Assembly: GCA_017303535.1 (NCBI GenBank) | Contig: JAFLCO010000022.1 | Span: forward strand, 1-34,161 | DNA: 34,161 bases | Direction of reading: 5' to 3' | From: Planctomycetota bacterium | GTDB lineage: Bacteria > Planctomycetota > Planctomycetia > Pirellulales > PNKZ01 | Shown: one piece after another, positions 1 to 34,161 of the stretch | Layout: every line of letters begins with the position of its first letter | How positions within the stretch are numbered: position 1 is the first letter of the stretch | Made by a program: the position numbers and the translations under genes | The notes under the pieces: model-generated | Databases searched by the model: none | What the model was told of the DNA's origin: nothing | What the model saw: only the letters and a program-made list of their open reading frames with translations

Positions 1-3000
1 GGCAAGAACGGCTTTAAGCTCTCGCTCCGCGGCTATGATCCGATCTACGATCTCCGGGCCTTCGCCGACGACCACGCTTCGCGACGCGTGAACGTCGCCG
101 CGCCGGACAACTCGCTGATGCTGCTCAAGGCGACGGCCGCCGTGCCGCACGTCGGCGGGCAACTCACGAAGCCGGGTGAAGTTTACTACAACATCGTCCG
201 CCGCTGGATCGCCGCCGGGGCGAAGGTCGATCATAAATCGCCGCGCGTGGTCAGCATTGAAGTGCAACCGCAAGGCGCTGTAGTCGATCGGGCCGGCCGG
301 AAGCAGCAAATGCGCGTGCTGGCCCGCTATGCCGACGGCCGCGTGCGCGACGTGACCCGCGAAGCCTTCATCGAAAGCGGCAATCTGGAAGTCGTCTCGG
401 CCGCACCGGGCGGCTTGCTCACGGCCTTGCGTCGTGGTGAAGCTCCGGTCTTGGCTCGCTATGAAGGGGCGTACGCCGCGGCGACGCTCACGGTGATGGG
501 CGATCGCTCCGGTTTCCAATGGGTCGAACCGCCGAAGAACAACCACATCGACGACCTGACGGCCGCGAAGTGGAAGCAAATGAAGATTCTGCCGAGCGAT
601 CTTTGCACAGACGCGGAATTCATCCGCCGCGTGTCGATCGACCTCACCGGCTTGCCGCCGACGGCGGAAGACGTCGAAGCGTTCCTGGCCGACAAGCGCG
701 AAACGCGCGTCAAGCGCGATGCCTTGGTCGACAAGCTGATCGGCAGCGACTCGTTCGTCGATCATTGGACGAACAAGTGGGCCGACTTGCTGCAGGTGAA
801 TCCGAAGTTCCTCGGCGCCGACGGTGCCAAGCTACTGCGCGATTGGATTCGCAAGGAAGTGGCCGACAATACGCCGTACGATCAATTTGCCCGCAAGATT
901 CTCACGGCCGACGGTTCGAACAAGGAGAACCCCGCCGCGTCGTATTACAAGATTCTGCGCGACCCGGCGAACACGATGGAGAATACGACGCACCTGTTCC
1001 TCGCGGTGCGGTTCAACTGCAACAAGTGCCACGACCATCCGTTCGAGCGTTGGACGCAGGACCAGTATTACGAGACGGCCGCGTACTTCGCGCAAGTCGG
1101 CTTGAAGGCCGATCCGAATGCCAAGGGAGCCTTGCTCGGCGGCACGGCCGTCGAAGGGGGCAAGCCGATGTATGAGATCGTGTTTGATCAACCGAAGGGT
1201 GAGATCAAGCACGACCGCACCGGCCAGGAAACCGCGCCGAAGTTCCCGTTCCCGGCGGAGTACGCCTCATCGGAAAAGGCGACGCGCCGCCAGCAATTGG
1301 CCGCGTGGATGACGTCGCCGGACAATCAGTACTTCGCCAAGAGCTACGTCAACCGTATTTGGGGTTACCTGTTCGGTGTCGGCATTATGGAGCCGATCGA
1401 TGACATTCGCGCCGGCAACCCGCCGACGAACCCCGAGCTGATCGAATATCTCACGGAACAATTTATCAAAGACGGCTTCAACGCTCGCGCTCTGATGGCC
1501 GAGATCTGCAAGTCGCGCACGTATCAGTTGTCAGTGAAGTCGAACCAGTGGAACGCCGACGACAAGACGAACTACTCGCATGCGATCGCCCGCCGGTTGC
1601 CGGCCGAAGTGCTCTACGACGCGATCCATCGTGCGACCGGCACCGTGTCGAAGTTCCCCGGCTATCCCGACGGTACTCGGGCTGCCCAACTCGCCGACAT
1701 CAGCTCCGCCATGGGAGGCGGCTTCCTGCAAACGTTCGGTCGTCCGCCGCGTGAAAGCGCTTGCGAATGCGAACGAACCGGCGGCATGGCGCTCGGCCCG
1801 GTGATGGCGATGATCTCCGGCCCGACGTTGTCGGACGCGATCAGCAACCCGCAAAACGCGCTGTCGAAGCTGACCTCGACCGAGAAGGACGACGCTAAGC
1901 TCGTCGACGGCCTGTTCCTCCGCGTGCTTAATCGTCATGCGACGCCGCAGGAAATTGAAGTGGCCAAGAAGACGATGGCCGAGATCGACGCCGACCACGC
2001 GGAGCTTTCGAAGCAGCTCGCCGAGCGCGAAGCGTACTGGAAGCCGATATCCGCAAAGCTCGAAGGGGAGCGCATCGCCGCGATCGCCGCCGCCAAGCTG
2101 GCGCTGGCCGATTATGAGAAGGCGCAAGCTCCGAAGGTCGCCGCCGCCGAAAAGGCCCGGCTGGAGGCGATCGCCAAGAACGAAGCGGCGCTGGCCTTGG
2201 CGCAGCGTCGCCTGCCGCGGTCGCAAGAAGCCTGGGAAAAGAGCCTCGGCTTGAAAGACGACACGGTGCTCTGGCAGCCGCTGAAGATCACCGAAGCGAC
2301 CGCCAAGGCCTCGAGCCCCGTGAATTTGGCGATCGAGAACGACGGCACGACCGTCTTCACGGTCGACGGCAACGCGCAGCCGACGTTCAGCCTGACCGGC
2401 GAAACGGCACTCACCAACGTCACCGCGATCATGCTCGAAGTACTGCCGGACGAACGCCTTCCCGGTTTCGGGCCCGGCCTGAGCGGCCGCAACTTCGTGT
2501 TGAGCGAAATCATCTTGGCCGACGCCGCCAGCCGGTCGAAGAAGGCCCGTCGGGCGCCGGTCGCACAAAGATTTAGCGATGCGATCGCCGACTATTCGCA
2601 AGACAAGTTCGACGTGAAGACCGCCATCGACGGCAAGCGCCAACAAGGCGACTCCAACGGCTGGGCGATCGGCGGCAAGCCGGGCGTGCATCGGGCCGTG
2701 TTCCAACTGGCCAAGCCGGTCGCCGACAAGGAAGGCGTGGAACTCAAGCTCGACCTGGCTCAGGTCTTCCGCCAAGGCTTCGTCATCGGCAAGTTCCGCT
2801 TGTGGGTCACCGATGCCGCGAAGCCGCTCAGCTTCGGCTTGCCGGCCGACGTCGCCGCAGCGCTTCGTGTGCCCGCCGAGAAGCGAACGGCCGCGCAGAT
2901 GGACGTCGTCGACGCCTATCAGCGGTTCACGAGCCCGGAATTCGACAAGCAGCAAACGGCCCTCTGGACCGCACGGTTGCCGCTTCCGGTCGATCCGCAA

Positions 3001-3183
3001 CTCGTTGCGCTCAAGTCCGCGGTGACGACGGCCGAACAACCGGTGCCGCTCGATCGCACCCTGGCCCAACTCCGCACCGATTTCGAACAAAGCCAACAAC
3101 AAACCGCCGATAAGCGTCTGACGGTCGTCCAGGACTTAGCCTGGGCGCTGATGAATAGCCCGGCGTTCTTGTTTAACCATTAA
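1..3183 (+). CDS. DUF1549/DUF1553 (PSCyt2/PSD1) planctomycete surface or periplasmic protein, 5' truncated
   Basis: The reading frame is open from base 1, so the gene begins before the window; the GTG at 88 is internal. Visible order: the end of a planctomycete cytochrome-like segment (about nt 1-230), a Big/Ig-like segment (about 240-510), DUF1549 (about 560-1180) with CNKCH at 1018-1032 followed by DHPFERW, and DUF1553 (about 1260-1930) with the family CECER motif near 1760. A charged Ala/Glu/Lys-rich coiled coil follows (about 1975-2240), then a beta-rich segment and a short C-terminal DUF1553-like end that finishes in the typical NSPAFLFNH. CxxCH is the covalent c-type heme motif and is usual in this family, but heme binding is not demonstrated. 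The next gene is a DUF1501 protein, the standard partner in Planctomycetes. The function of the pair is unknown; a role in the cell envelope or in handling exported substrates is inference. The coiled-coil insertion is long for the family. Confidence 0.93.
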   Translation, partial: GKNGFKLSLRGYDPIYDLRAFADDHASRRVNVAAPDNSLMLLKATAAVPHVGGQLTKPGEVYYNIVRRWIAAGAKVDHKSPRVVSIEVQPQGAVVDRAGRKQQMRVLARYADGRVRDVTREAFIESGNLEVVSAAPGGLLTALRRGEAPVLARYEGAYAAATLTVMGDRSGFQWVEPPKNNHIDDLTAAKWKQMKILPSDLCTDAEFIRRVSIDLTGLPPTAEDVEAFLADKRETRVKRDALVDKLIGSDSFVDHWTNKWADLLQVNPKFLGADGAKLLRDWIRKEVADNTPYDQFARKILTADGSNKENPAASYYKILRDPANTMENTTHLFLAVRFNCNKCHDHPFERWTQDQYYETAAYFAQVGLKADPNAKGALLGGTAVEGGKPMYEIVFDQPKGEIKHDRTGQETAPKFPFPAEYASSEKATRRQQLAAWMTSPDNQYFAKSYVNRIWGYLFGVGIMEPIDDIRAGNPPTNPELIEYLTEQFIKDGFNARALMAEICKSRTYQLSVKSNQWNADDKTNYSHAIARRLPAEVLYDAIHRATGTVSKFPGYPDGTRAAQLADISSAMGGGFLQTFGRPPRESACECERTGGMALGPVMAMISGPTLSDAISNPQNALSKLTSTEKDDAKLVDGLFLRVLNRHATPQEIEVAKKTMAEIDADHAELSKQLAEREAYWKPISAKLEGERIAAIAAAKLALADYEKAQAPKVAAAEKARLEAIAKNEAALALAQRRLPRSQEAWEKSLGLKDDTVLWQPLKITEATAKASSPVNLAIENDGTTVFTVDGNAQPTFSLTGETALTNVTAIMLEVLPDERLPGFGPGLSGRNFVLSEIILADAASRSKKARRAPVAQRFSDAIADYSQDKFDVKTAIDGKRQQGDSNGWAIGGKPGVHRAVFQLAKPVADKEGVELKLDLAQVFRQGFVIGKFRLWVTDAAKPLSFGLPADVAAALRVPAEKRTAAQMDVVDAYQRFTSPEFDKQQTALWTARLPLPVDPQLVALKSAVTTAEQPVPLDRTLAQLRTDFEQSQQQTADKRLTVVQDLAWALMNSPAFLFNH

Positions 3184-3186
3184 GAG

Positions 3187-3280
3187 AAATGGGGAAGGCG
3201 GAATGGTGAATGGGGAATGATTGAAACTAGGCGTTTCTTTTCCTCTTCATTCCCCACTCCCCATTCCGAATTCCCCATTT
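3187..3280. repeat. Heptad inverted repeat, core word GGGGAAT
   Basis: The left arm (3187-3220) and right arm (3247-3280) are reverse complements at 30 of 34 positions, around a 26-nt loop. Each arm contains four degenerate 7-nt units. Left: GGGGAAG, GCGGAAT, GGTGAAT, GGGGAAT (3191-3218). The right arm read on the minus strand gives GGGGAAT, TCGGAAT, GGGGAGT, GGGGAAT (3249-3276). The element starts 3 nt after the upstream stop codon and fills most of the gap between two co-directional genes. It has no T-tract typical of an intrinsic terminator. Confidence 0.85.
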
Positions 3281-3312
3281 AAGAAGTCACCTTTCGTCTC
3301 AGGAGGATTCCC

Positions 3313-4782
3313 ATGCTCGTCGTACCCGGCCGTGAAGGGAAAGACTTGTGCGATTCGCATCTCGGCATGTCGCGTCGGGCCGTGCTGCGCGTCGGCGGCA
3401 GCGGCTTGTTCGGGCTCACGCTTGGTTCCATGTTTCGCATGCAAGCCGCAAGCGCTGCCGCCAACATTAAAGGCGGACCGGGCTGGGGCAAGGCGAAGAG
3501 CGTCGTCATGGTCTACCTCCAAGGCGGGCCGAGCCACATCGACCTCTGGGATCCGAAGGAGAACGTGCCGGACAAAGTCCGCAGCGCGTTCAAGAGCATC
3601 CCCACGAAGATCCCCGGCGTGCAGTTTACGGAAATCCTGCCGAAGCTCGCGCAGGTGAACGACAAGTTCACGATGATCCGCTCGATGGGTTACACGCCCG
3701 TCGGCCTCTTCAACCATACGGCCGCCATCTATCAGATGATGACCGGCTACACGACCGACAAGGTCAGCCCATCGGGCCAGCTCGAACCGCCGAACGCGAA
3801 GGACTTCCCGAACTTCGGCTCGAACATCGTGCGCCTGAAGCCGAGCGAAGTGCCGATGCTGCCGTTCGTCATGCTGCCCCGTCCGTTGCAAGAGAGCAAC
3901 GTCGTCGGCAAGGCCGGCACCGCCGGGTTCCTCGGCCGCGACTACGATCCGTACACGCTGTATCCCGACGGCGACGACATGGATATGGCCAAGATGGAAA
4001 AGATCCGCGTCGACGACCTCAAGCTGCGGCCGGAAGTGTTCGCCTCGCGGCTCGAGCGCCGCGCCAAGCTACGCGAAATGATCGACGCGGGCATGCCCGA
4101 CATTGATAAAGCCGTCGAAGATTACAAGCTCGATGAATATTACGATCGGGCCTTGAACCTGGTGATCTCCGGTCGGGCACGCGAAGCGTTCGACATCGGC
4201 CGCGAAGATCCGAAGACCCGCGACCGCTACGGGCGCAACACGTTCGGCCAGAGCCTGCTCTTGGCTCGCCGCCTTGTGGAAGCCGGCACGCGCGTGGTGG
4301 AAGTCATTTGGCCGAAGGTCGCCAATTCCGACAATCACTCGTGGGACCATCACGTCGGCCTCACTGATCGCATGAAGCAACGCTCGGGCCCGATGCTCGA
4401 CGGCGGCCTCTCCGCCTTCATCGCCGACTTGGACGAGCGCGGCTTGCTCGACGAGACGCTCGTCGTGGCGGTCGGCGAGTTCGGTCGTTCGCCGCAGAAG
4501 GGCGTGAGCACCAGCGGCAACGGTAATAGCGCGGACGGCCGCGACCACTGGCCGTACTGCTTCACGTCGATCGTCGCCGGCGCAGGAACCAAGCGCGGCT
4601 ATGTCCACGGCAAGAGCGACAAGACGGCCAGCGCGCCGCTTGAAGACGCCGTTCACCCGGGCGAACTCCTGGCTTCGATTTACCACAGCGTGGGGATCGA
4701 CCCGGAAACGATCGTCTACAACCACTTGAACCAACCGCGCGAACTCGTGAAGGCGCAAGCCGTTGCGAAGCTGTTCGCGTAA
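3313..4782 (+). CDS. DUF1501 family protein with Tat-like signal
   Basis: A 489-residue protein of the DUF1501 family, which belongs to the alkaline-phosphatase/sulfatase-like superfamily and has no assigned reaction. The start is fixed by a strong AGGAGG at 3301-3306, 6 nt before the ATG. Residues 20-50 carry a twin-arginine-type signal (SRR, then a hydrophobic Gly/Leu-rich run ending in Ala-Ala), so export in folded form is likely. Family hallmarks are [15 protein letters not shown] near residue 70, [13 protein letters not shown] near 135, GEFGRSP near 395 and [10 protein letters not shown] near 410. It follows the DUF1549/DUF1553 gene by 129 nt; the two families are commonly adjacent in Planctomycetes and are probably co-transcribed. 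The length is normal for the family. Confidence 0.95.
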
Positions 4783-24070: not shown

Positions 24071-26044
24071 TCACCGTCCGCCGAAGAACCGGCGTTCCAA
24101 CTCCGCGTTGCCGGCCTGGATGTAGTAGCTCACCAATTGCCGACGGGCCTCGCGCGGGGCAATGCGGCCTTGCTGCAACGCTTGAATGAGCCCGACATGG
24201 CGGCGTGCCGCAGTGGCACGGCGCGTGCGGTCGTCGGCCGTCGCGTCGGCAGCGAGCGGCGCATTGCGCAGGGCGTCGCGAGCCGCTTGAAAATCGGCGC
24301 TCGCCGCAAATGCGACTTCGTCCAAGGTCTCAACCACGGCCGCCGCTTTAGCCGCGGCTACGAGATCGGTCTCGGCTGCTACGCCCGCCGCACTCGCCAA
24401 AGCCTGCGCCAACAAAGGATTGGCCCTTGCCGCTTCGGCCGTTTTTAAGCGGAGCGTATCAAACCAATCTCCTTGCGCTTGCATCTCGCGCACGACGAGC
24501 AGCTTGGCAAACTGATCGAACACGGCCTCTTCGACCTCGCGCCGCGGATCGTACATCGGCTCCCGCCTGCCGACGATTTCCAATCGCGACGAATAAAGCG
24601 CGCCGCTCGGTGACAAGAACCCTTCCCCGAGCGACAGTCCCATCTTCGCGACGTTCTCCACCGTCCGGCCGCCGGCCTGCTTCTCGGCCAGCGGAAAGTA
24701 TTCCTCGCGCGGCACATCGGTTTGCAGTGCACAGAGCAACAAGAGCCCGGCGCAATAGGTATGCACTTTTTCATCGGCGAGCGACTTGTGCGCGAGCCGC
24801 TCGACGCGATCACTGCGAAAGTTGAGATCAAACTGCGACGCGTTGTCGATCACTTCCGATCCGGCCCGGGCCATCGCCGCCGCGGCCTTCGCGTCGCCGT
24901 CGCGTAAGAAGAAGTAGTGCAGCGTCCGTTCGAGATAGATCTCCACATTGACCGCCGGCACGCGATCGCCGCGCTCCGGCACGTCGACGATCACGAACCG
25001 CCGCACGCCGTCGGCGCCGGTCTCCGTCGCCACGATCCCCACGTGCGTGAACAGCCCGGGCGAGAGATCGGTGAACAAATTGTACGGCGACGGATTGCGC
25101 ATCAGCAGCCAATCGCCGGGCCGCACCGCGAACGAACCGACTTGATACGCGTCTTCCATTACGCCCTTCTTGCGGCGGCCGTCGCTCCAGTCGAGCAGCG
25201 TGCTGCGGCGGGCCTGTCCTTCCGCGTCGAGTTCCGTCGGGTCGATCGCTTCGACAAGTTGATAAAACTCGTCGGGCGTGATCGCCGGATCGGGCAACGT
25301 CTCCACAGGATTCGGCCGCGGCGGCTGCGGCAAGCCCAGCACGCGGATGATCTCCGCGGCGAACAATCGCATCGGCGCACCCTGCGACGGGTCGTCGACG
25401 TATTGCACGACCTGCGGCAAGAGCGACGTCTGGCCCGAGGCCGCGATCAGCCGCAGGATCAACTCGTGATAGCGGGCCCGACCGGGAAACGCGAACAGAT
25501 CGTCGGCGGTCTGCGTCGCACCGACGATGCTCTTGTATTGCAGAAACAGGGCCGCCAACTGTTCGCGCGAGGCGGCATCGGTCAGCCGTCCGCGGGCGTT
25601 GCGCACGACGTCGTTCTGCAAGTAACGCAATCGGCCGGACAGATCAATCAGTACGGTCGCCGCATTCAAAAACCCGCGGGCCGCCTGGCGGCGCTCGGAA
25701 TCGTCCGGCGGTTCGGCGGCCAAGGAAGTAATCGTCGTCCGCAGGTTCAGCACCCGATCAAGCAGCGCATCGGCCCGGGCTTTGGCATCGAGCGCAGTGC
25801 GAACGACCGTGAGCGGCGACGGAGCCCGACGAGCGGCGATGCCCGACGCCGGCGTGAGCTGCGTATTGGCGAAGGCCCAATCGTCGACGGCCCGCGCGGC
25901 CTGCTGCAACGCGGGCACATTGAGATTCAGCAACCCGGCGACATCGCGCGGTACGGCGACATCGAGCGTATCGAGAGGCGCGGCCGTGGCGACGGAGGCG
26001 ACCGACGCGAGGAAGCAAATCAACAGCTTGAGAACAGTATGCAT
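24071..26044 (-). CDS. Exported YiiX/YebB-like permuted papain-fold (NlpC/P60 superfamily) protein
   Basis: A 657-residue protein with a signal peptide (about 1-22). Residues 23-300 are mostly helical and unrecognised. About 305-440 look like the YiiX-type circularly permuted NlpC/P60 domain: RPGDWLLMRNPSPYNLF (near 307), the catalytic His near 334 in FTHVGIVATE, an acidic strand VIVDVPERG near 355, and the nucleophile candidate Cys near 430 in TYCAGLLLLCAL. His before Cys is the permuted order. Members hydrolyse lipid or peptide amides or esters, but the substrate is unknown here. A long helical, Ala-rich C-terminus (about 530-657) follows. The extra helical halves are unusual, since YiiX is about 200 residues. 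The ferredoxin gene is downstream. Confidence 0.75.
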   Translation of the reverse strand: MHTVLKLLICFLASVASVATAAPLDTLDVAVPRDVAGLLNLNVPALQQAARAVDDWAFANTQLTPASGIAARRAPSPLTVVRTALDAKARADALLDRVLNLRTTITSLAAEPPDDSERRQAARGFLNAATVLIDLSGRLRYLQNDVVRNARGRLTDAASREQLAALFLQYKSIVGATQTADDLFAFPGRARYHELILRLIAASGQTSLLPQVVQYVDDPSQGAPMRLFAAEIIRVLGLPQPPRPNPVETLPDPAITPDEFYQLVEAIDPTELDAEGQARRSTLLDWSDGRRKKGVMEDAYQVGSFAVRPGDWLLMRNPSPYNLFTDLSPGLFTHVGIVATETGADGVRRFVIVDVPERGDRVPAVNVEIYLERTLHYFFLRDGDAKAAAAMARAGSEVIDNASQFDLNFRSDRVERLAHKSLADEKVHTYCAGLLLLCALQTDVPREEYFPLAEKQAGGRTVENVAKMGLSLGEGFLSPSGALYSSRLEIVGRREPMYDPRREVEEAVFDQFAKLLVVREMQAQGDWFDTLRLKTAEAARANPLLAQALASAAGVAAETDLVAAAKAAAVVETLDEVAFAASADFQAARDALRNAPLAADATADDRTRRATAARRHVGLIQALQQGRIAPREARRQLVSYYIQAGNAELERRFFGGR

Positions 26045-29957: not shown

Positions 29958-32900
29958 TCAGGACCGGGTCGGCGTTTGTTCTTCGTCGGTCGGGTCGGGG
30001 TCGTCGAGGTGAGCGGCGTCGTGGCCGTAGGCGGTTGAGCCGTTGCCGCGGGGCGTGTGGCCGATAGAACCGTGTCCGTTCGATTCACCGTGTAAGTGGT
30101 CACCGTGGCGTCGGGCGTCGGGCGCGCGAAACTCCGGCGGTTTGTAGGACGGGGCCGTCGCTGCGACCCCTTCCCCCGAGACCAGCGGCCGCGGATCGCC
30201 GCCCGAGACCACTTCGTACTGCATTTCCTTCGGCACCGGTTCGCCGGCCAGGAGCGGCTCGCCGTATTCGTCGATTTCGGCGAGCCGCGGCTCGTGCGGA
30301 TCGGCGGGCGTTTCGGTCTTCGGCGCTCCCCAAATCATCCGCCGCAGCCCGTCTTGCAGGTCCATGCAAATCGTGAACAAGGCCGGAATGAAGAACAGCG
30401 TGAAGAAGGTGGAGAACACCAAGCCGCCGAGCGTCACGCTACCGAGGCCGCGGTAGAGTTCGCTGCCCGCGCCGGGCGAGATGACCAGCGGCAACAGGCC
30501 GAGCAAGCCGATCAAAGCCGTCATGAAGATCGGGCGGATGCGCGTCCGCACGCTGTCGAGCACCGCGTCGCGGGCGTTCATCCCTTCGTCGCGCACGTTT
30601 TGCAGAGCTTGTTCGACGATCAGGATCGGGTTGTTCACCACCGTGCCGACGAGCATGATGAACCCGACCATCGTGAACATGTCGAGCGGCTGATTCGCAC
30701 CCGGGGTGAAGTAACGTAAGCCTGCGTTCAACAATTCCAGCCCGACGAACCCGCCCACCGCGCCGAGCGGAACGCTGAGCATGATGATCAGCGGGTAGAG
30801 CCACGACTCGAACAGTGCGGCGATCACTAGATACGTGATGACCACGGCCAGCGCCAGGTTCCAGCGAATGCTGAGCCAAGTGCTTTGCAGCTTGTCGGCC
30901 GTGCCGGAGAGATTGACTTGGTAAAGCCCCTTGAGCGAGGCATCGCCTTCAATCGGCTTGACGATCGCCTCCTGGATCTTGTTCATCGCGTCTTCGATCG
31001 CCACGTTCGGCGGCGGCGACACTTGCACGGTAATGGCCCGCAAACGCTCGCGGCGATTGATCTGCTCGGGCCCGCTGGAGGCGAGAACGTCGGCGACCGA
31101 TTCCAGCGACACGGTACGGCCTTGCGGCGTGTGAATCGAGAGGCCGCGCACGTCTTGCACGGTCTTGGCCCGTTCTTCGTTGCCGACGATGGCCAAGTCA
31201 ATGCGGTCGCCGTCGAGCGTGTAGTCGCCGGCGTACGCGCCGTCGACCAACGCGTTGACGGCGTAGCCCATTTCCGAAGCCGTCACGCCGAGGTCGGCCG
31301 CTTGGTCCCAACGGGGGCGAATGTGTAACTCGGGCGCGGAAAGATCGGCGCTCGGCACCGGTCGGAACTGAGCTTCGGGAATGAGCCCGGGCACTTTGCC
31401 CATCGTTTGAATGGCGAGCTGCACAAGCTTCGTGACGTCGGGCCCCATGATTTCGATATCGACGGTGCGTCCGGCGCCGAGGCCCGACTCGAACAAGCTC
31501 GATTGCTTGGCGATGGTGATCATGCCGGGAATATCGGCCGTGGCTTCGGTGATGAGCGCGGTGAGAGCGCCGGCGCGGAGCGGGTCTTCGGCGCGCAGAC
31601 CCATGAAAAGCATCCGGCCGCGGGCGACGTAAAAGAAGTCGCCGATGCCGCCGCCTTGGCGCTCCGACAGCGGCACGCGCGGGTCGATGTCCCAATGCTT
31701 CCGCATTTTGTTTTCGATCGTCTCGCCGATGGCGTTGAGTTGATCGAGGTTGTAGCCCGGCGGCGGCAGCAGCAGGCCGATGGCCAAGTTGCGATTGCCG
31801 TTGGGCAGGTATTCCACCTTCGGCATCAACCGCCAGCTGAAGAACAGCGAAAACGCCAAGCAGCCGGTGATCACGGCCAGCCGCATGAGCGTGCTTCTCT
31901 GCACCGCGGCGTTCGCCCCGACAACGACGCGTGAGAAGGCGTCGCCGAACTTATCGAGCGGCGTGCAAAGCCGCTGAATCAGCGTACGGCGCGGCTCGTC
32001 GCTCATGACGTTCTTGTCGTGCATGAGCAACTGGCCCGAGGCCATGGGAATCAGTATCAACGACACCAAGAGCGACAGCCCCAGCGCGCAGCTGATGGCC
32101 AAGGCCAAGTCGTGAAAGAGCTGGCCGACCTGGTCGTGAACAAACAGCACCGGCACGAATACGGCCAAGTTCGCCAAGGTGCTGGCGACGACCGCGCCCC
32201 AGACTTCACCCGTGCCTTTGACGACCGCCGTGATGATCGAGTCGTGATTTTGCCGATGCCGGAAAATGTTCTCGAGCACGACGATGAAGTTGTCGACGAG
32301 CATGCCGACGGCGAACGAGATGCCGGCCAAGCTCAGCAAGTTGAGCGACCGCCCCATCAAGCCCATCGCCAGGAACATGCCGATCATACTGGTGCCGATC
32401 GCCGTGAAGATCACGAGCGTCGACTGAATGTTCTTGAGGAACACCAACAGCACGATAAAGCTCAGCACGGCCCCTTCGACGACGTTGTCTTTCACCAGCG
32501 CCATCGAGGCGTGAATGTATTCCGTTTCGTCGTAGACCTGCGTCAGTTCCAAGTCGCGGGGGTAGAGAATGTTTTCGTTGAGTTGTTGGGCCGCTTCCTT
32601 CAGGCCTTCCATGATCTTGACGACGTTCGCGCCCGTCTCGCGCTGGGCGTTGATCGCAATGACGGCCTTGCCGTAGCGGCGCACCACGCCGTCGGGCTTC
32701 TTGTACCCGAGCCGGACCTTGGCGACGTCGCGGACGTACACCGGCCGGCCGTCGACCCGCGCGAGGATGGCGTTTTCGATTTGTTCGGGCGTGCGAAACT
32801 CGCCGAGCGTGCGGACGACGATGCGGCGCTTGCCTTCCCAAAGATCGCCGCCGGAGACATCGGCGTTTTGGCCGCGGAGCGCATTGCGGACGGCTTCGAT

Positions 32901-33647
32901 CGTCAGGCCCGATTTGGCGAGCAGTTCCGGTTCGACGACGACCTGCATTTCTTCTTCGCGGCCGCCGACGACGTTGGAGTTCGACACGCCCTTCACGCGT
33001 TCGAAGCGCGTTTCGATGAAGTCCTCACAGAAGCGACGGAGCGTCGTAAGGTCTTGATCCTTCGGCAGAATCTCGTTGACTTCCGGATGCTTCTCCGCGA
33101 GTTCGCGGAGTCGGAAGAGCTTCAAGCTCGCGTTCATCGTGAGCTTCGCCGTCTCCAGCGGTTGCGCGAGCTGCGGATGCTTGGCGGCGAAGGCGTCGAT
33201 CTTGTCGTCGGTCGGCGGACGAAGATTGAGAATGAACCACGCGATCCAGCGTTCGGAAGTGTTCGACGTGGCGATCACCGGTTCGTCGGCGTCTTCCGGA
33301 TACTCGGGCACCTGTTGCAAGCGCGTGCTCACCATGAGCAGCGCCTTGTTCATGTCGGCGTCGACGTCGAACTCCAGAATCACGCGCCCCATCGAGTCCA
33401 TGCTTTCGCTCGTGAGCTTCTGCAGGCCTTCGACGCTTTGGAGCTGCTCTTCCTGCTCCTGGACGATTTCCTTTTCGACCTCCTGAGGGCTGGCGCCGGG
33501 CCAACGCGTTTCGACCGTGATCGTCGGAATTTCGACGTCGGGCGTGAGCTGGATCGGCATGTTGTAGAGCGCGATCCCGCCGAACAGCGCCACCAAGATG
33601 ACGCCGACGAGTACTTTCACCGGATTACGTACGAACGACTCAATCAC
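29958..33647 (-). CDS. RND-family efflux permease with porter-domain insertion and His-rich tail
   Basis: A 1229-residue inner-membrane proton-driven pump of the RND superfamily, longer than the usual 1000-1050. The first TM is at about 10-28, the porter domain carries PDVEIPTITVETRWPGASP (37-55), and TM segments cluster at about 390-560 and 920-1100. The TM4 charged pair reads VDN (near 448) rather than VDD: the first Asp is kept and the second is Asn. About 45-50 extra residues lie at 143-200 between the first two porter subdomains. The cytoplasmic C-terminus (about 1175-1229) is rich in His, Gly and Asp, with seven His within roughly 35 residues. The GTG start fits the family pattern. It follows an adaptor gene by 50 nt. 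Cargo (drug, metal or lipid) is unknown. Confidence 0.93.
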   Translation of the reverse strand: MIESFVRNPVKVLVGVILVALFGGIALYNMPIQLTPDVEIPTITVETRWPGASPQEVEKEIVQEQEEQLQSVEGLQKLTSESMDSMGRVILEFDVDADMNKALLMVSTRLQQVPEYPEDADEPVIATSNTSERWIAWFILNLRPPTDDKIDAFAAKHPQLAQPLETAKLTMNASLKLFRLRELAEKHPEVNEILPKDQDLTTLRRFCEDFIETRFERVKGVSNSNVVGGREEEMQVVVEPELLAKSGLTIEAVRNALRGQNADVSGGDLWEGKRRIVVRTLGEFRTPEQIENAILARVDGRPVYVRDVAKVRLGYKKPDGVVRRYGKAVIAINAQRETGANVVKIMEGLKEAAQQLNENILYPRDLELTQVYDETEYIHASMALVKDNVVEGAVLSFIVLLVFLKNIQSTLVIFTAIGTSMIGMFLAMGLMGRSLNLLSLAGISFAVGMLVDNFIVVLENIFRHRQNHDSIITAVVKGTGEVWGAVVASTLANLAVFVPVLFVHDQVGQLFHDLALAISCALGLSLLVSLILIPMASGQLLMHDKNVMSDEPRRTLIQRLCTPLDKFGDAFSRVVVGANAAVQRSTLMRLAVITGCLAFSLFFSWRLMPKVEYLPNGNRNLAIGLLLPPPGYNLDQLNAIGETIENKMRKHWDIDPRVPLSERQGGGIGDFFYVARGRMLFMGLRAEDPLRAGALTALITEATADIPGMITIAKQSSLFESGLGAGRTVDIEIMGPDVTKLVQLAIQTMGKVPGLIPEAQFRPVPSADLSAPELHIRPRWDQAADLGVTASEMGYAVNALVDGAYAGDYTLDGDRIDLAIVGNEERAKTVQDVRGLSIHTPQGRTVSLESVADVLASSGPEQINRRERLRAITVQVSPPPNVAIEDAMNKIQEAIVKPIEGDASLKGLYQVNLSGTADKLQSTWLSIRWNLALAVVITYLVIAALFESWLYPLIIMLSVPLGAVGGFVGLELLNAGLRYFTPGANQPLDMFTMVGFIMLVGTVVNNPILIVEQALQNVRDEGMNARDAVLDSVRTRIRPIFMTALIGLLGLLPLVISPGAGSELYRGLGSVTLGGLVFSTFFTLFFIPALFTICMDLQDGLRRMIWGAPKTETPADPHEPRLAEIDEYGEPLLAGEPVPKEMQYEVVSGGDPRPLVSGEGVAATAPSYKPPEFRAPDARRHGDHLHGESNGHGSIGHTPRGNGSTAYGHDAAHLDDPDPTDEEQTPTRS

Positions 33648-33697: not shown

Positions 33698-34161
33698 CTA
33701 GGGATTGCTTCCGGCCGGCGCCGCACCGGCTTGTGTTCCGGGGACCGCTTGCGGCGACGCACCCGCTTGGGGCGCAGGACCGGTCGCTTGCGTGGCCCGT
33801 CGCGAAGCGGCGACGATCCGCAGCTCCTGATCCGGCCGCAGCCGCTCGTTGCCCTCGATCACCAATTCCATGCCGGGCTGCAACGGGCCCGAGGCTTCGA
33901 AGTATTCGTTGAAGGCGCTGCCGAGGGTGACCGGAATCAGTTTGGCGACGGCCGTTTCCGCGCCCGGCGCGCTGCGCACGGCCGCGTAGACGATCGGCAC
34001 CTGACCGCCCATAACCACGGCGTCTTGCGGAATCAGCAGCACTTCGTCGCGCTTCTCGACCGGCAACCAAACTCGTGCAAACATGCCCGAGCGAACCTCC
34101 GGATTTCCTTCGGCGTCGAACTTGTTTTTCAATCGGACCTTCACCGGGAAGTTGCGCGAGC
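33698..34161 (-). CDS. RND efflux periplasmic adaptor (MFP/HlyD), C-terminal part
   Basis: The frame is open to the window end, so the gene starts beyond 34161; the GTG at 34144 is internal. The visible 154 residues contain the end of the beta-barrel domain (RLKNKFDAEGNPEVRSGMFARVWLP split around a family Pro/Gly turn), the RSGM-A-V pattern and VLLIPQDAVV typical of membrane-fusion proteins, and a membrane-proximal domain (VTLGSAFNEYFEASGPLQPGMELVIEG). The tail is Ala/Gln/Pro-rich (about the last 35 residues) and probably disordered. It lies 50 nt before the RND permease gene on the same strand, the normal order for an efflux operon. The outer-membrane channel gene is not in view. Confidence 0.93.
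   Translation of the reverse strand, partial: SRNFPVKVRLKNKFDAEGNPEVRSGMFARVWLPVEKRDEVLLIPQDAVVMGGQVPIVYAAVRSAPGAETAVAKLIPVTLGSAFNEYFEASGPLQPGMELVIEGNERLRPDQELRIVAASRRATQATGPAPQAGASPQAVPGTQAGAAPAGSNP

Follow-up and report, generated by a model that had tools for sequence, protein, structure and literature searches.

The window, by which we mean the whole 34,161-nucleotide stretch of planctomycete DNA analysed here, encodes an RND permease of known type, and what is new about it is a clade-specific, predicted helical insertion in the porter domain. We otherwise class the protein as an ordinary proton-driven, adaptor-paired subunit of the HAE type, within a planctomycete family (Table 1). The best explanation overall, which we consider evenly balanced, would be an HAE-type pump spread across the Planctomycetota that is paired with an adaptor, couples to protons through a single carboxylate and bears a helical insertion in PN2.

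Table 1. Features of the permease locus (all on the minus strand; positions are those of the window).
Feature	Position	Strand	Remark
RND permease ORF	29958..33647	(-)	1229 aa, GTG start
3' part of an MFP (periplasmic adaptor) gene, truncated at the window end and immediately upstream of the permease ORF	33698..34161	(-)	Partial RND_mfp match
Conserved insertion, residues 144-203, between PN2 beta1 and alpha1	33039..33218	(-)	Family and outside alignments
Helical repeat unit 1, residues 148-165 (DKIDAFAAKHPQLAQPLE)	33153..33206	(-)	Internal repeat test, predicted helices
Helical repeat unit 2, residues 178-195 (FRLRELAEKHPEVNEILP)	33063..33116	(-)	Internal repeat test, predicted helices
TM4 D452-N453, at the places of AcrB D407-D408	32289..32294	(-)	Alignment
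TM10 N1005-N1006, at the places of AcrB K940-N941	30630..30635	(-)	Alignment
C-terminal tail after TM12, residues 1097-1229 (133), last 55 His-rich	29961..30359	(-)	Poorly conserved

The permease is a probable HAE-type RND pump

The ORF matched the full-length Pfam profile ACR_tran (PF00873) with 692.8 bits (cut-off 28). The TM4 motif GX3DX6E, which PMC5719797 names as an RND motif, is present with G448, D452 and E459, each of which is invariant among 22 aligned members. The closest NCBIfam models are those of HAE-type multidrug families, with the pump lying under every NCBIfam cut-off (NF033617 gives 588 vs 1250 bits). The CusA/CzcA model TIGR00914, which represents the HME class, scored 352 bits against a cut-off of 701.45, and the NCBIfam models revealed no metal-pump signature. 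A protein from a Pirellula sp. MAG is 82% identical to the window pump across residues 1-1228, which marks the source as a planctomycete. Planctomycete genomes can carry many RND pumps, the 6.58-Mb genome of the window containing 31 ACR_tran matches; our literature search turned up little on them.

Like the HAE-1 permeases AcrB, AdeJ, MdtB and MexB, the window pump matches ACR_tran over the whole protein, shows the RND layout by alignment and has an adjoining adaptor gene. It differs from them in an extra PN2 insertion of about 50 residues, in Asp-Asn in TM4 and in Asn-Asn in TM10. The outside pair nearest to the family in the tree described below consists of an Azospirillum protein (L119) and a plasmid permease of Pseudoalteromonas sp. 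THAF3 (WP_152441760.1, L118; 34.5% identity). The latter has VDN in TM4, GTVVNNPILIV in TM10 and an adaptor upstream, but lacks the insertion, its corresponding stretch measuring 32 residues compared to about 80 in the family.

A porter-domain insertion marks one planctomycete clade

Across positions 136-215, the window pump has 80 residues compared to 26-36 in 12 outside RND proteins (seven from this genome, one from a relative and four from proteobacterial plasmids), none of which possesses the insertion. For L004 and L005, two of the outside sequences, a first alignment had given 42 residues for this stretch and a more careful one gave 29. The resulting 44-54 or so extra residues agree with the porter-domain insertion of about 45-50 residues proposed in the initial annotation. 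We aligned the window protein with 46 homologous loci, each gene being represented once: further copies of a gene and short contig fragments such as L041 and L060 were left out, and two contig-truncated rows without TM10 (L061, L063) were kept. In 45 of these 47 rows the span measures 78-83 residues; the exceptions are L045 with 87 and L050 with 136. It follows the consensus PP....FxxxHPxLAxxL...GLxLxRLRxLAxxHPExxxLLPPxxDxxxLR, and P145, P158 and P188 are each conserved at 90% or more. The insertion is thus kept in close and distant homologues alike, as its conservation check had asked. Within the genus pair its dN/dS (0.09) equals that of the transmembrane part (0.09), and in a more distant pair, formed with L046, it is 0.50, above the 0.30 of the neighbouring parts. 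The pump frames of L080 and L084 were obtained by reading through one TAG, for which a sequencing error, a pseudogene or an upstream stop are all possible.

With up to 16 candidates scored per genome, a profile of the insertion matched at least 49 of 392 Planctomycetota genomes, inside as well as outside the class of the window. At all 30 listed loci it sits in an RND protein, and 29 of these read GMLVDN; in the remaining one (L111) the reading frame breaks at TM4. At E 1e-200, the family as a whole was matched in 90 of the order's 296 genomes, and the rows inspected from the order are among 30 listed loci of these 90 genomes. Beyond the Planctomycetota, the scope comprised four proteobacterial plasmid loci out of 188 matching plasmid records; viral contigs yielded no relative. 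In a maximum-likelihood tree, a branch supported at 100/99 separates 26 family members from 11 outside proteins, the outside branches being long according to a program warning. Judged by these sequences, the insertion marks one Planctomycetota clade. Our literature search found no paper on it, which does not prove absence, as many journals lay outside the search.

The insertion is built from a duplicated, predicted helical unit

Averaged over the family, the two repeat units resemble each other with a mean BLOSUM62 score of 0.91 at an offset of 30. All other offsets between 20 and 40 scored -0.24 or less, none of 5000 column permutations reached 0.91, and the top of 23 control pieces elsewhere scored 0.20. 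The insertion thus consists of an internally duplicated 'xxHPxL' unit, predicted to be helical; the initial annotation had missed this repeat. AlphaFold2, run on four sequences only, gave poor models overall (mean pLDDT 38.9 for the full-length protein, and 45.1). The insertion itself stood out, at about 50-75 in the former model and mostly at 80-90 in the latter. Helices were predicted at about 147-156, 158-168, 173-186 and 188-192, and in these models the insertion looks like two helix-Pro-helix units.

The insertion profile matches twice in genome G020, the source of the long L050 span, and twice in genome G077; in both, the pair of units has been doubled again. The tandem double inserts lie at L050:7014-7514 (G020) and G077:C1:2682579-2682926 and correspond to four putative helical units.

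Among known repeats, the leucine-rich repeat variant LRV_2 (Pfam PF25591) bears some likeness: six of 31 members matched it at E <=0.1 and one of them, L058, passes the cut-off (29.0 vs 27 bits over 20 residues); the window insertion itself gave no match at E 0.1. A PDB profile search with the insertion returned nothing under E 0.07. With the PN2 fragment, Foldseek gave E 0.03 or worse, and the best VIA-align hits (Z 4.3) were small helical bundles below a meaningful level, which leaves unlisted folds possible.

Alignment with AdeJ and AcrB puts the end of the insertion near their residue 154, which places it in PN2 between beta1 and alpha1. This beta1-alpha1 loop is described as a known insertion point of the fold in PMC8277102 (section 52). 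The same section covers the PD-fold insertions of NPC1, DISP1 and FtsX, which would occupy the same point of the same module; these are beta-hairpins, whereas that of the window family is a predicted helical repeat. Because beta1 and beta2 are parallel, the loop probably lies on the funnel side of PN2, toward the outer face, a placement by topology and not by structure since the full-length model is poor.

Adaptor docking is the preferred role for the insertion

The partial adaptor scores 49.4 bits against RND_mfp, below the cut-off of 94.9. Of 18 distinct family loci, 16 have a homologous adaptor ORF beside the pump, upstream in 15 and downstream in one; the two loci without such a neighbour are L040 and L047. 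The former, which has an aldehyde-dehydrogenase-like ORF upstream of the pump, was left out of the co-divergence test below. We also observed that the alpha-hairpin of the family adaptors, including those of L039 and L042, bears paired G-R-x-E motifs and is longer than in three outside adaptors used for comparison.

Our first choice for the function of the insertion, held tentatively and somewhat short of an even call, is adaptor docking. We prefer it because of the placement in PN2, the adaptor gene next door and the adaptor-PN2 contact known from AcrAB, where, according to PMC6975555, the second adaptor protomer binds mainly PN2. The same source reports that adaptor 2 of CusBA makes little contact with PN2, so that PN2 docking is not universal. 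Across 15 pairs, insertion and adaptor co-diverge weakly (partial r 0.39). The insertion ranks fifth among 50 segments, and one of the four higher-ranked segments overlaps it. Mechanistically, the two tandem 'HP' units would form a helical mini-domain at the PN2 beta1-alpha1 loop that strengthens the contact to the adaptor or gives it specificity. As a guarded possibility, the duplicated units may more generally constitute an expandable helical-repeat mini-solenoid, a dedicated arm for docking the adaptor or a different periplasmic protein that is fitted to the planctomycete envelope. Nothing points to a metal role for the insertion. In any case, it is a defined, removable element for probing how pump and adaptor recognize each other.

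We consider it unlikely that the insertion instead acts on the substrate, as a lid or extra capture surface by the porter-domain entrance that tunes the entry of lipids or drugs. PN2 lines the distal pocket in AcrB, which counts for such a role, but the presumed funnel-side edge of PN2 points away from the entrance of the PC1/PC2 cleft. PMC8406276 reports for MtrD that 11 additional residues change substrate access, and one family member shows a weak profile likeness to the helical XPC-binding domain (E 6.8e-4), which however stays under the Pfam cut-off. Less probable still, the insertion would stabilise the trimer or act as a spacer, without any partner beyond the pump itself. The near-fixed length of the span in all but two rows and the packing-like Leu/Ala/Pro pattern would suit it, but the doubling in one lineage could hardly be tolerated by a packed spacer.

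The proton-relay centre probably uses a single TM4 carboxylate

TM4 of the window pump reads GMLVDNFIVVLENI, and the second Asp of the pair is indeed Asn, as the initial annotation had noted for its VDN. In place of the Asp-Asp (TM4) and Lys (TM10) of AcrB-like HAE-1 pumps, the family has Asp-Asn and Asn-Asn. The former occurs in 45 of 47 rows, the exceptions being Asp-Ala in L058 and Asp-Ser in L059. The latter, overlooked in the initial annotation, is found in all 45 rows that reach TM10; the AcrB numbering at this site is assigned by alignment. The insertion-free Pseudoalteromonas plasmid pump has the same motif pair. As nearly all members carry VDN, it gives no clue to the substrate, and we reject the earlier proposal that it signals an unusual one.

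PMC5719797 describes D408 as less conserved than D407, with many members having one acidic residue, and loss of K940 as likely accompanying loss of D408. It further notes that neither the second Asp nor the Lys occurs universally, and it describes single-carboxylate coupling. Proton coupling in the window pump may thus run via one TM4 carboxylate, D452, in an Asp-Asn/Asn-Asn centre that would replace the Asp-Asp-Lys triad of AcrB. Conserved family-wide, this centre is a natural test case for single-carboxylate proton coupling.

The His-rich tail is poorly conserved

The last 55 residues contain seven His, compared to 1.0% His in the remaining protein (binomial P ~1.5e-6), so the His-rich end seen in the initial annotation is real and beyond chance composition. 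With 111 of its 133 positions aligned, the tail is 54% identical to that of the same-genus protein L042; for the next relative, L046, the identity is 25%. Its dN/dS is 0.37 in the genus pair, beside the 0.09 of the insertion, and 0.96 in the pair with the next relative, rates that are rough as the tail alignments are gappy. In the other members its length varies from 5 to 113 residues and its His count from 0 to 6, and it is absent or short in most; two contig-truncated rows have no countable tail.

The suggestion that tail and VDN together make a metal-controlled pump now appears very improbable. Besides the seven His, it could draw on the His in the tail of L042 and, in differing sequences, of L046, L064, L056 and L045 (5-6 each), but it is opposed by the patchy occurrence and low identity of the tail, by VDN being the family norm and by the CusA/CzcA score far under its cut-off. 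We dropped metal control through the tail as unsupported by its conservation and dN/dS. Given the poor conservation, the fallback offered at the time, a disordered and near-neutral tail, fits better, and the His-rich tail most probably extends into the cytoplasm as a disordered stretch under weak constraint.

Further genes in the window

Positions 24071-26044 (-) encode a secreted-looking protein of 657 aa without a Pfam match, whose stretches FTHVGIV and HTYCAGL we take to resemble a permuted NlpC/P60 hydrolase. At 1-4782 (+) lies an adjacent gene pair whose translations presumably represent a planctomycete PSD1-type cytochrome protein and a DUF1501 protein.
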